A DNA stretch of 64,000 bases from positions 828,501 through 892,500 of the forward strand of contig NC_092563.1 in NCBI RefSeq assembly GCF_037975245.1. Reading direction: 5' to 3'. Numbering within the stretch: position 1 is the first letter of the stretch; each line of letters begins with the position of its first letter. Positions 4,401 to 41,467 of this stretch are shown here, piece by piece. Both the position numbers and the translations under genes were made by a program. The notes under the pieces are model-generated. The model was not told the DNA's origin. It searched no databases and worked only from the letters and a program-made list of their open reading frames with translations. This stretch comes from Apostichopus japonicus (lineage: Eukaryota > Echinodermata > Holothuroidea > Aspidochirotida > Stichopodidae).

Positions 4401-7400
4401 ATGCCGTTAGATAAACTTTCAAGATACAGAAGGTTTTTCAACTTTTTGATCCATCTCATTTTTCAGGTTTTCCCTTATTATACAGTATACACCTCCTACA
4501 TACAGTTCCAATTGTAGGGTCACAAAGTTTTACTTTAAGCTGAACAATTTCAGATCCTGAACTCTGTTGAAACCTGATAACTATTGTAAAATTTGAGAAT
4601 GGAAAATTGAGTTAAAACAAAAGTTTCACAACATACCTTACTTATTCCTAAACCACAAATTTATGATTCGAGCAAAAATTCATTCACAGATATTTTGAAT
4701 CGTTCCGTCTCAATTTCAAATTTAGAAAAATTGTCTCACATCCAGGTTACCTTTAAATTCTTGACAGTTATTAATTTGCATATCAATTGATGTTATTCAT
4801 TCGATCCTATTGGACAATTAACAAGAAGATAATAGAATCAGATGCTTTATGGCAAAGCAAAACCATTCTATCAAACACACACACCAACATACCCTAACAC
4901 TGCTGCTCTCACTGGCTTGTGTATATCTCTCAGCCTGTGAAAAATATAATTGGCAAGTTTTCTTGGTTTTCATTGGAAATACTTTGAATTTCTTATTTTG
5001 CAAAACTTCAGTTGCAGGAAAGGGAGGTGCACTACTGCTAAAATAAAATGTGATATTTCATGAAATTCCTCCTTAAAGTTGACTGCCCTGAAAAATAATT
5101 TCTAAGAAAAGTCACTCAAAGATTGAGCCTGGGTGTGATAACCAAACAACTTTAACTGATCCACTCTCCGCCGCAGTCCCATTTCATCGAGACTGTGATC
5201 GTGATGATGTTACGTCTTATGTGTATCGCGAGTCCCTTGGAAAGAGAATACATCTACACATGATCATTAGCCACAAGACAGAGTAGCTGACAACAGAGTG
5301 GAAAGGGAGTATATACTACAGATGGTCTTAATAGCCAAAAGACTGAGCTGCTTGAACCCCCCTTAAAGGTACAGTCTACATCATTTTAATATCTAGTGTC
5401 TGTGGTATCTTTCTTTGAAGCACAGACTTGTGAACTTGTGACATGTCCTTTAATAACATTTTTCTGACGACTGATCAAATCCACCTAGAAAAGTTAAAAA
5501 TCTCCTAGCCTCACCAGATATCCCAAAATCTGAAAAGAAATCGACAATTTTGAAGGAAAGAATGGTCACAATGGGATCAATCAATTCTTGTCTTTGATTT
5601 TCTTGATACTTCCAATGCTTTTCTTCTCATTCAAAACTCTATTCTTATATTTTGATCCCACAGATGGCTACAAAATAATTTGGCAGTTTAGAATCCATAG
5701 GAAGAAATGTTTGGAAAACTTTCTAGTAATTTTATCCTGATGAAATACTGCCTCTAATATAGCTTTGTAGTAAAAAAAACCCATCTTTTCTATCCAAAAT
5801 TGTTGTTTTCTGTTTCAATTTTCAATTCAGCAGACAATGATATGTGAGTGAGCTTTTAGCGTGTGATTTTGCAGACACTTACCCCAGTCATTGAGATGAG
5901 CCGCTACTTTACGATAAAAGGAATTCATGACAATGATGACAATGGCATAGACGGAGCTTGGAAGGAGCATCACCATTCGGCCAAGAGACGATTCGATATC
6001 AAATCGAGTCTTGAGCCAATCTTCAAACCAAAAGCTTGCAAGCATGACAAAAAACGCAACAACGAGGAATACCAAGATAATCGGCCAGGAGACTCCGAAC
6101 ATCTTCAGTTGACGGGTGGACTTCGGGGAAGATGGCTCCCTCCGCTGCGTGACAGGGTTGATGGTGATCTGTCCGACAAACTCGGGTCTGGCTTCCTCAA
6201 ACTTGACTGCGCCGTAGGTGCCCCAGTTGAAGGCCATGGCGTTGCAGTGTCGTTTCCACATCTCCAGAAAGACTGTGGTCCATATGAGGTTGAAAATGGC
6301 AAAAAAGGCATACATGTATCCCAGACGATAAATGAATGTATCCACCAGGAAGTAGACCAGACCAATGGTGGCAGGCAGTATCAGTCCAACGGTGTAAAAA
6401 CCCAGGAACGAGAAGTAGATAGCCACGGCCTCACCAAAATACTTACGGATTGCCTCTGTAAACAAAAAAATAGAACACAATCTTTATAACTTCAAAAGGA
6501 CAATACTGCATGACCCATACAAAGGCATGACATCATTGAATAGGTAAGAAACTTCAACATTAGAATAAACAAATGACTTTATGCATGACACACACAAAAG
6601 CATCGTTGCATAGGTAAGAAACTTTCCACATTAGGATAAACAATGACTTTATGCATGACCCATATATAGGCATCATTGTATAGGTAAGAAACTGTCCACA
6701 TTAGAATAAACAAATGACATTATGCATGACACATACAAAGGCATGACATCATTGTATAGGTAAGAAACTTTACACATTAGAATACACAAATGACTTTATG
6801 CATGACCCATACAAAGGCATGACATCATTGTATATGTAAGAAACTTCCACATTGGCATAAACGACTTTATGCATGACCCATACAAAGATATCATTGTATA
6901 GGAAAGAAACTTTACACATTAGAATACACAAATGACTTTATGCATGACCCATGCAAATGCATCATTGTATCTAGGTAAGAAACTTTACACAAAGACATGA
7001 CATGCCTAATTACAACTGATAATGGTAATAATATCATTAAGAAGCCTTCCTAGACTCTCTTGTTTCAGGCACAACTTACAACTGGCCATTACGTATTAAA
7101 TGATAGGTGATGAGAAATTTGAAGCCTACTGTATGTTGTGGATTTGTGTCTGCCTGTAGCCACAGCTGGATGCAAAGGAAACTTCTGATAGAAGGAAGAC
7201 TTGCCTGGCATCACACTTATATCGGTATACTCATCGTTATGCTATAGTTTGTAAACAATTTTCCATTTCTTTCAAAGAACTCAAGACTCACCAATAGGCT
7301 GGGTGGCAAAGGAACCAAGGTTGGAATACCATCCTCTAATCAGGTTTTTGAGTTCATCCTCTTCGTGTAAGGGATACACCTCCTCAATGATCTTCTTACT

Positions 7401-16205: not shown

Positions 16206-16211
16206 GCCGAA

Positions 16212-16261
<50 letters not shown>

Positions 16262-16311
16262 AAATTCTCCGGAGAACTCGCATGAGTTCTGAACTTTCCC
16301 GGGTTTCGGCA
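16206..16311 (+). tRNA. tRNA-Phe (GAA) with a 33-bp insertion in the T arm
   Basis: Acceptor GCCGAAA pairs with TTTCGGC, followed by A73. The D arm is GCTC/GAGC, the anticodon stem TCAGA/TCTGA, and the loop CTGAAGA has anticodon GAA at 16239-16241. The T stem CCTGG (ending in the B box GGTTCAAAT) pairs with CCGGG at 16299-16303, but 33 bases (16266-16298) lie between the T loop and the 3' T-stem strand. Removing them restores a normal 73-nt tRNA. The inserted piece contains a GAACTC-GCAT-GAGTTC hairpin. T runs at 16316-16319 and 16321-16324 could end Pol III transcription. It may be a broken gene, a precursor with an unusual intron, or a variable T-arm form. The identity is firm; function is uncertain. 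Confidence 0.8.
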
Positions 16312-16562
16312 TTCCTTTTCTTTTATTTCAATCACCACACGAAAACAGAGCAATTTTCTTTTTCCTTTCCATTCAGTCACTTTGAAGTATCCACATTCTC
16401 ATAATTAGTAGATGGAATAAAATAAGGGAAAATGTAACATATGGATTGGCTGATTATCTATAACGTTTAGATATTTCTATTAAATAGTCATTTGTCATAA
16501 ACTTATTTCATGGGCTTAGGAAAATTTTAAACATGGGAAGGTGGGGGGGGGGGGCTGAGATC

Positions 16563-24948: not shown

Positions 24949-37248
<12,300 letters not shown>

Positions 37249-39282: not shown

Positions 39283-41467
39283 TTAGGGATGAAGTTCTTC
39301 CACCATATCTAGGTGATGCTGATCCACAACGTGGAATTCTTCTATAACTGCCTTTGCTGCTGCTTCTTCTACATGATCGACATGAAATGTTTCAACTAAC
39401 GAATTGCTCAACGATTCCGCAAAGGCATTGCAATTGTTCTCTTGAGCTTCAATGGAGTCTCCATGAACTTTGACCTGGTGTCTCAGTAAATGATGTTTCC
39501 TTGGGAAGCGGTTATTGCACTTTGAACAAGCAAATCGCTGTCCCTGAGTGGTGTGTGCTTGGTAATGTATTTTGCAAGGAACCTCCGACGTGAACCTGAA
39601 AGTGCACCCCTTGAACGGGCACGGATAGGGTCTGTCCAAAGAGTGGACTTTGACATGTTTCCTCAGAGAGGAATACATATTACCACAGATGTGGCAGAGG
39701 TGAGATTGTTTTGGATGGATTCTGTAATGTTTATTCAGTGCTTGTGTGTCACCTGACTGGAAGCTACAGAGAGAACATTTGATTTTACCGTACGATGCAT
39801 TCAGATGGTCCTTTTTATGACTCCACAGTAGATGCCAGCTCCTGAACGATCTCCCACACTCTTCGCACAGAAACCTCTTCACGTTCAGATGCTTATCTGT
39901 ATGAGCTTGAAGCTTGCTGTGCGTCGCAAATTGCTTGGAACAGTAAAGACAAGGCAGTCCGATTACGGCGCCACCAGTGGTGAGAGTCTTCTCTCGCACC
40001 CGTCTAGACCTTCTCTCTTTGTCTTTTATCTTTTGCTCTAAAAGCTTTGACCTGTACTCCTGGAAGGAAGTAATACCTGGCTCTGTGACACCAGAGATTG
40101 TCTTTATTCGCACACTTTTCATCTTCTCAGATGAACACCTGTCCATGATTTCGGACTGGTGAGAGTCCATCATGTGTACAATGAGGCGATCCAAACAGTA
40201 CTTTTCAAAAGCTTCACAATACAAACAGATGTAGACTTCCCGTAAGTACCTAATGTTCTTCCCTGAGCTCTCTTTCATTCCAACTTGAAAAAGGAAATCT
40301 TTCTCATACTTTGTTACATCCACAGAACTGTCCAGGATTGAGGAAAACCTTCGTTCCTCCAGGGAGACACCATCTCCTTTCTCACCGGTGAAATTGTTCA
40401 CCTCCGAATGAATCATTTCTTGCGTCTCATTTTGGGTACATGCTGTCTCTTGCAGGTTGTGTTGCATACTAATTGCATCCCTCCCCTGAAGGTTGTCATT
40501 CATCCCTTGAGCACATATTATTATGACCTTCCTGTGTCCGTCACGGGCAGTCGATGAAGCCACTGCCGTCGATGCAAATCTCTTAATCTGCGTAAGAGCC
40601 GTTGAACTTAACACTGGATTTCTTTTAGGGAGGCAACTTTCAGGAGGTTTAAAAGAAGCCGGAAAATGTGAATATAAAGCAGACTTTTGTGTCTCGTCTT
40701 TATCACTCCCTTCAACACAACTTTCATCACTTCTAATTAAAACGTTTCCAATGTTAGATATGTTCTCCATGCCATTGTACTTACAACTCTCAAGGACAGG
40801 TAAGGTCTGGTTTACAGATTGAGCGGGATCAGAGGGGTTCCCCTTTAAGCAATGTTCCCTGCCTTCGGTAGCCCTCTCCTTTCCTGTACAAACAAACGGA
40901 CTAATCTTCGATTCTGAAGAGGTCGATGTAGATGCATCTCTATCGCATGATAAAATAATATGTTCTGGAGCTCCCATATCTTTGCTATGAAGGTTAACAG
41001 CTTCGTCCAAGCCTTGCTGGGTAACACTATGTGGCTTGGAAGAGAGGCAAGAAACTTCATCCAGGTTATCTGGTAGGATCTCCTCAGAGGTTAAAGTCTG
41101 CACATTATGGAAGTAGAGGTAGTGGTGATGAATGGATTCTTGTGAAAGTTCCTTTGTCTTGCATAACAGACAAAAATATATCCCATTCCAAGTGTCATCT
41201 GACATGAAAGGAAAAGAGATCACATATCAGGTGAAATATAATACATATATTTTATTTGAAAAACTAATTTATACAGGAGAACAGTGAGTGAGTAACCAAG
41301 TAAGTTTCCTTACGAGATATTTTGTGCCGCAGAAAATCCCCAGCCTCGTTACAAGCAATGTCGCATAGTCCACAGACGAAAATATCTAACTTGGTCTGCT
41401 GCACGCTGCTGAGTGGAGTAGTCTCATCAAGACCCTGTTCTGTAGTTTCCTTACTGCCTTCATTCAT
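39283..41467 (-). CDS. Nine-finger C2H2 zinc-finger protein
   Basis: Two exons on the minus strand: 41314-41467 (ATG at 41467) and 39283-41198, 689 aa. The codon split by the intron encodes His52, which is the fourth ligand of finger 1 (C32, C35, H48, H52, spacing C-x2-C-x12-H-x3-H). The splice therefore completes a finger, strong support for the join. Further C2H2 sets: 61/64/77/82, 376/379/393/398, 468/471/484/488, 496/499/512/516, 526/529/542/546, 553/556/566/570 (a short finger), 578/583/596/600 and 609/612/625/630. Fingers 4-9 form a tandem C-terminal array with some linkers unlike TGEKP. Residues 90-370 are Ser/Thr/acid-rich and probably disordered; a basic 'KDKERRSRRVREK' precedes the array. 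No BTB, KRAB or SCAN domain. Likely a nuclear DNA-binding regulator; no orthologue recognised. Confidence 0.9.

Follow-up and report, generated by a model that had tools for sequence, protein, structure and literature searches.

T-arm introns in tRNA genes have been described from a red alga, from a nucleomorph and from archaea. In the red alga Cyanidioschyzon merolae, a bulge-helix-bulge (BHB) is thought to guide the endonuclease to such introns, according to parts of PMC9602550 and PMC4090602. The section of PMC4090602 on the nucleomorph of Guillardia theta reports 3-nt T-arm tRNA introns whose excision was shown by RT-PCR, and its section on archaea places non-canonical tRNA introns with BHB or relaxed hBH/HBh′ motifs at positions such as 53/54, 56/57, and 59/60. 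As stated in the relevant passages of three further papers, the yeast endonuclease is strict for position 37/38 (PMC4033280), eukaryal enzymes failed to cut a minimal BHB in the conditions that were compared (PMC8707768), and the human tRNA splicing endonuclease (TSEN) requires the pair between anticodon and intron for cutting at the 3′ site (PMC8479045). In the literature that we searched, with few subscription papers within reach, no nuclear tRNA gene of an animal was reported to carry an intron in its T arm, and a search on echinoderm tRNA introns likewise yielded nothing of that kind.

Here, we describe a tRNA-Phe(GAA) gene of Apostichopus japonicus whose T arm holds 33 extra bases. The gene (106 nt) lies at positions 16206–16311 on the forward strand of a 64,000-nt stretch of DNA, hereafter the window, which occupies 828501–892500 of contig C3 in the 671.6-Mb assembly of 35 contigs that was searched for related sequences. 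Pairing is possible in all four stems (acceptor, D, anticodon, and T), the anticodon is GAA, the anticodon loop is uninterrupted, and the insert comes after the T loop and before the 3′ half of the T stem; what is left without the 33 nt is a standard 73-nt tRNA-Phe. The initial annotation, which had read a tRNA-Phe(GAA) with all helices intact and 33 bases separating the T loop from the 3′ half of the T stem, was accurate on these points, as it was on the complementarity between T-arm bases and the end of the insert, which it had given as GTTCA with TGAAC. The hairpin it had recognized in the insert is also present, with a length of 7 bp (AGAACTC/GAGTTCT) instead of the 6 bp given there (GAACTC/GAGTTC). 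The features of the gene are collected in Table 1.

Table 1. Features of the tRNA-Phe(GAA) gene, in window coordinates
Feature	Position	Strand	Basis and remarks
5′ exon, tRNA nt 1–58: acceptor 5′ strand, D arm, anticodon arm (GAA), T stem 5′ strand, T-loop nt 54–58	16206..16263	+	Sequence; 58/58 nt identical to the C17 copy
Presumed internal promoter A box, TAGCTCAGTTGG	16213..16224	+	Intact against the consensus
Presumed internal promoter B box, GGTTCAAATTC, extending into the insert	16257..16267	+	One mismatch (C3) to the consensus GGTTCRANYCC
Exon strand G53 U54 U55 C56 of the proposed 4-bp exon–intron helix	16258..16261	+	Sequence; energy folding unfavourable
Putative 33-nt intron at junction 58/59 of the tRNA	16264..16296	+	ARAGORN without the insert; T loop TTCAATC in C3, C17, and C8 copies
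TCCGGAG, invariant in five aligned T arms	16268..16274	+	Alignment
Intron hairpin AGAACTC-GCAT-GAGTTCT, 7 bp	16273..16290	+	Pairing probability; kept at C17
Intron strand GAAC of the proposed helix, −6 to −3 from the putative 3′ splice site	16291..16294	+	Sequence; energy folding unfavourable
3′ exon, tRNA nt 59–73: T-loop end, T stem 3′ strand, acceptor 3′ strand, discriminator A	16297..16311	+	Sequence; identical to the C17 copy
TTTT, likely RNA polymerase III terminator	16316..16319	+	Sequence; begins 5 nt past the gene

ARAGORN did not call a tRNA gene at 16206–16311 when run on the window, and recognized a 73-nt tRNA-Phe(gaa) only with the insert left out, the C17 copy then giving the identical 73-mer. 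Since the program made this call at all three junctions tried for the window gene, it cannot choose among them. The Rfam tRNA model scored the window gene above the gathering score (32.1 against 29 bits) but matched only part of the model (positions 8–63 of 71), and in its alignment a CCGG of the insert filled the place of the T stem's 3′ strand. The TCCGGAG of the insert could indeed pair with CTGG of the T stem in an alternative fold, which is the one used by both the Rfam alignment and the unconstrained fold. A TTTT also stands within 10 nt of the gene end at the C17, C4, and C8 copies.

Other features of the window were identified by eye. Exon-like ORFs at 25522–35643 (+) resemble a leucyl-tRNA synthetase, probably a mitochondrial one, and their distance of about 9 kb from the tRNA-Phe gene is probably a coincidence. 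On the reverse strand, an ORF at 5827–6480 is similar to a membrane protein of the anoctamin family, and a 646-aa ORF at 39283–41223 contains several C2H2 zinc-finger motifs. Elsewhere in the assembly, the mitochondrial contig C35 carries a COX1 for which, judged by eye, translation with the echinoderm code (table 9) works best, the letters within COX1 being no different with table 14; its gene order, taken from ORFs and tRNAs, is COX1, R, ND4L, COX2, K, ATP8, ATP6, COX3 and so on, in keeping with sea urchins or sea cucumbers. Contig C29 (31219 bp) holds pieces of COX1 at two places and is probably a misassembled or multimeric mitochondrial contig.

Several placements of the insert with the same net length are possible. 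With junction 58/59, five T-loop bases stay with the 5′ exon and two with the 3′ exon; the resulting T loop is TTCAATC in the C3 gene, the C17 copy, and the tabulated C8 unit, a normal loop with A57 and A58 shared by the three families whose T arms are readable. Junctions that keep three or four loop bases were rejected, as R57 or A58 is then lost although the loops of the copies compared are identical; with six bases kept, the loops are normal but unlike between copies and the −6/−3 pair disappears, and with seven, the C17 copy loses Y60. Because 58/59 yields the same normal T loop across copies, it fits better than the position of about 60/61 first proposed for the insert, and we prefer 16264–16296 to the original boundaries of 16266–16298.

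Under the 58/59 junction, the GAAC near the end of the insert and its complement, G53 U54 U55 C56 of the T arm, could pair, each strand occupying −6 to −3 relative to its splice site, which is also the register of the helix in the archaeal BHB. The intron strand of this helix is GAAC in C3 and C8 and GAAU, with a G-U wobble, in C17; GUUC/GAAC pairing is available in C3 and in the C8 rows with GGTTC, as opposed to a C-C mismatch in the row with G53C. The possible −6/−3 pair resembles the anticodon–intron pair of human TSEN substrates. At the proposed splice sites, the unpaired stretches would span 10–13 nt (5′ side) and 5 nt (3′ side), and since both stretches exceed the ideal 3 nt, the tRNA-Phe insert does not form a strict BHB with two 3-nt bulges, which leaves a relaxed motif as the only option. 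Among 20,000 mononucleotide shuffles of the insert, a hairpin of at least six Watson-Crick pairs with a 3–5-nt loop arose in 1.6%, the exon–intron helix in register (G-U allowed) in 2.3%, and helix and hairpin together in 0.04%.

Energy folding favoured neither a cloverleaf precursor nor the proposed helix. The latter was absent from all six folds of three precursors (free and with the T stem forced), its pairing probability was about 0.003 in C3 and about 0.0003 in C17, and the full proposed structure had −29.9 (C3) and −30.5 kcal/mol (C17) versus free minima of −36.6 and −38.0 kcal/mol. The insert hairpin reached pairing probabilities of 0.90–0.98 in C3 and 0.42–0.45 in C17, and the free fold of C3 contained a second stem-loop, CTGG/CCGG, beside it. 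The T arm is imperfect in the free fold of the plain 73-mer too, so that energy folding is a weak judge here. It is from the complementarity of the two strands that we infer the exon–intron helix.

The window gene is a member of a conserved family and no lone oddity. A DNA search with it gave at least 40 matches (40 of 40 scored, of 96 candidates), and a pattern spanning insert and acceptor matched 94 times in the genome versus once for the reversed control, with one match on C3 (the window gene), one on C4, two on C17, and 90 on C8. The insert is hence common to tRNA-Phe sequences at four genomic places, namely C3, C4, C17, and a tandem array on C8, and the idea of a single broken copy was rejected on these grounds. 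The same pattern had no match among the viral contigs of IMG/VR, where few were expected. Units measure 106 nt in C3, 105 nt in C17, and 108 nt in C8 (39 of the 42 readable units), with inserts of 33, 32, and 35 nt and a remainder of 73 nt in each case. Only the 3′ half of the C4 copy was used in comparisons, one of the two C17 copies is truncated at the 5′ end, and a copy on C8 outside the array is internally deleted. ARAGORN called no genes on pieces of the C8 array and of C17.

The C8 array comprises 88 units within a 49-kb stretch, spaced by 283 or 291 bp in 62 of 87 intervals. Hairpin, GAAC, T stem, and acceptor are all unchanged in the 3′ halves of 77 of the 88 units. The 5′ half was readable in 42 units, which form a biased sample because unreadable bases occur in the other 46; none of the 42 gave a flawless predicted tRNA, the exon changes being G53C in 30 units, T54C in six, and others in the remaining six. 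Much of the array may therefore be degenerate. Decay of stems, loops, or promoters, present in all 42 readable array units, is absent in C3 and C17.

The insert motif by itself, allowing up to three mismatches, occurred 195 times in the genome versus 121 times for the reversed control. Among the first 100 of these matches, all places with no or one mismatch were within the tRNA-Phe family, and 8 of the 12 with two mismatches fell outside it. A freely mobile insert motif was rejected, as there is no clear excess outside the family.

The 73 exon nucleotides are identical between C3 and C17, whereas 5 of 32 aligned insert bases differ and one gap is present (Fisher p = 0.002, or 0.0006 with the gap counted). 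Of the 50 positions in each adjoining flank, only 18 and 17 agree between C3 and C17, 23 and 18 between C3 and C8, and 14 and 16 between C17 and C8. The best BLAST hit among 300-nt flanks, 28 nt at 89% identity between the 3′ flanks of C17 and C8 (E 1.7e-5), is the family matching itself, since it falls on the truncated copy of C17 and on the array unit that follows; C3 and C17 shared 14 nt (E 2.7e-4) at runs of G in both. In the anticodon stem, C28-G42 of C3 and C17 stands against U28-A42 in C8 units, a change on both sides of the pair. Such exon identity next to a diverged insert and unrelated flanks, together with the paired change at 28:42, is not the behaviour expected of dead copies. The hairpin of the C17 insert is retained through one two-sided change (A-U to G-C) and one one-sided change (A-U to G-U); for five aligned rows, the observed two-sided change was reached in 105 of 500 shuffles and may have arisen by chance. 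The hairpin structure pairs 98.7% of cells, compared with at most 53.3% when it is slid by 1 to 3 columns. The initial annotation had argued for either a recent event or continued use. An insert found at four places with unrelated flanks, where these were compared, gives the former no support, and the latter draws support from the exon conservation, the 28:42 change, and the single predicted mature T loop within this genome.

An uninterrupted tRNA-Phe(GAA) gene was not recognized by pattern searches in the readable part of the assembly, other parts being outside their reach. A pattern for the 5′ half of tRNA-Phe had 41 matches, every one in the insert family. An anticodon-to-T-arm pattern with three mismatches matched 13 times, corresponding to six tRNA-Cys genes called by ARAGORN, five members of the insert family, and two other sequences. 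The uninterrupted stretch from T loop to acceptor, with at most one mismatch, had 88 matches versus 10 for the reversed control, 85 of them in the family; the three outside it (C3:6571811, C8:34099171, and C16:29864361) do not coincide with any tRNA-Phe 5′ half found by pattern. A T-arm–acceptor pattern matched five times, always on C12 and with three mismatches each, and the three of these matches that were inspected look like tRNA-derived repeats. The positive control, a pattern for the canonical tRNA-Tyr intron, had no matches and is uninformative, being an exact pattern.

Some sequences encountered in these searches are of separate interest. Three tRNA-like sequences on C12 have an intact B box and no ARAGORN call, and probably represent a tRNA-derived repeat; of the five C12 matches, three are 165 bp apart. 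On C2, four tRNA-Cys(GCA) genes form a cluster with a spacing of about 165 bp and are called by ARAGORN without T-arm inserts. A tRNA-like sequence at C8:35639862 (−) combines GGTTCGATACC with extra bases in the anticodon region and is perhaps a tRNA with an intron at the canonical position.

The reading that we find best supported, and to which we give moderate confidence, is that the T-loop insert is a real non-canonical intron (58/59) of a nuclear tRNA-Phe(GAA) and that the tRNA splicing endonuclease takes it out. In this reading, the entire 106-nt unit would be transcribed by RNA polymerase III, the intron would fold into its 7-bp hairpin, and the end of the intron would pair with T-arm bases 53–56 (GUUC/GAAC), so that the two splice sites would lie unpaired next to a helix of 4 bp, an arrangement like that of a relaxed bulge-helix-bulge. 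TSEN could then cut after A58 and before U59, and a 3′-phosphate (RtcB-type) ligase could seal the two exons to yield a standard tRNA-Phe whose T loop is UUCAAUC and which would be available for translation. A candidate splicing endonuclease appears to be encoded in the genome: the domain PF01974 had two matches over the cut-off on C17, both fragments and one with an internal stop. The strictness of the yeast enzyme for 37/38 and the failure of eukaryal enzymes on a minimal BHB count against an intron at this place. A conserved insert of 32–35 bases at a position for which introns of animal tRNA genes are not known, and whose omission leaves a normal tRNA, suggests a kind of animal tRNA splicing that has not been recorded.

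The main rival of an excised intron is a dead or dying tRNA-Phe family, in which an insertion into one gene was amplified like a satellite and left a few dispersed copies, with plain genes at work elsewhere in the genome. The 42 readable array units without a flawless member, the truncated and the deleted copy on C17 and C8, and the unfavourable folding of the proposed splice helix would all be accounted for, and plain genes could reside in parts of the assembly beyond the readable sequence. Part of PMC4090602 adds that eukaryotic T-arm insertions mostly affect one of many synonymous genes and are supposed pseudogenes. That argument is not directly transferable, since all 41 tRNA-Phe 5′ halves found belong to the insert family and no plain copy was recognized in readable sequence. 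Decay also sits poorly with the differences between C3 and C17, which spare the exons and are confined to the insert amid unrelated flanks, with the paired change at 28:42, and with the 77 array units whose 3′ halves are unchanged. We consider a degenerate family beside hidden plain genes unlikely. Still less probable is a functional RNA that is never spliced, a small non-coding tRNA-like molecule outside translation in which the hairpin would persist as an additional arm. The five aligned T arms all retain the hairpin and show no variation in TCCGGAG, and the free fold of C3 puts the CTGG/CCGG stem-loop beside the hairpin, but the acceptor, anticodon, and T-stem bases of C3 and C17 are those of a translating tRNA, 73 nt lie outside the insert, and nothing would explain why an unspliced RNA preserves a junction that leads back to a normal T loop.

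The initial annotation had expected many genomic copies to indicate a tRNA-derived repeat. Copies number over 90, yet nearly all stand in one tandem array without a common tail or flank. The 94 matches of the insert–acceptor pattern are what a mobile SINE headed by tRNA-Phe with its insert might produce, but only five lie outside the array, two of these defective, the 300-nt flanks compared share neither tail nor flank beyond the family members themselves, and the insert motif shows no clear excess outside the tRNA-Phe family. With most copies in one array, a few at other places, and nothing shared around them, the set looks like a tRNA gene family and not like a SINE, which we reject as very improbable from the distribution of copies over four places and from the flanks. 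An artefact of assembly or sequencing is harder still to credit: tandem arrays may be assembled wrongly, and nothing more specific points to it, but the insert occurs at four separate places with unlike flanks and insert variants.

That all cytosolic tRNA-Phe of the animal is made from genes interrupted in this way is possible, although we lean against it; if true, phenylalanine codons would be untranslatable without non-canonical tRNA splicing, the first such step known in an animal nucleus. A T-loop intron conserved in an animal tRNA gene family would show that animal TSEN can act in vivo away from 37/38; such an intron would split the T loop as well as the B-box promoter, and tRNA finders would overlook genes of this kind, as ARAGORN does.

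Canonical animal introns removed by TSEN resemble the case described here in the possible −6/−3 pair between exon and intron beside the splice sites (compare the relevant part of PMC8479045). They differ in their position at 37/38, against about 58/59 for the tRNA-Phe insert, where the enzyme would need to work around the ruler set by the mature tRNA body. Archaeal introns share with it the position in the T arm and possibly a 4-bp helix beside the splice sites, but their ideal bulge measures 3 nt, whereas here both unpaired stretches are larger and the helix is disfavoured by folding. The G. theta nucleomorph offers the same T-arm position in a nucleus of eukaryotic derivation, with introns of 3 nt in a reduced relict nucleus in place of 32–35 nt with a hairpin. 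C. merolae is a unicellular alga with many odd tRNA genes, in contrast to an animal in which a single isoacceptor is so far concerned and known from its sequence; it nevertheless provides, for example in its tRNA-Ile (UAU), a eukaryotic nuclear tRNA with an intron in the T arm, and in the alga this intron is removed.
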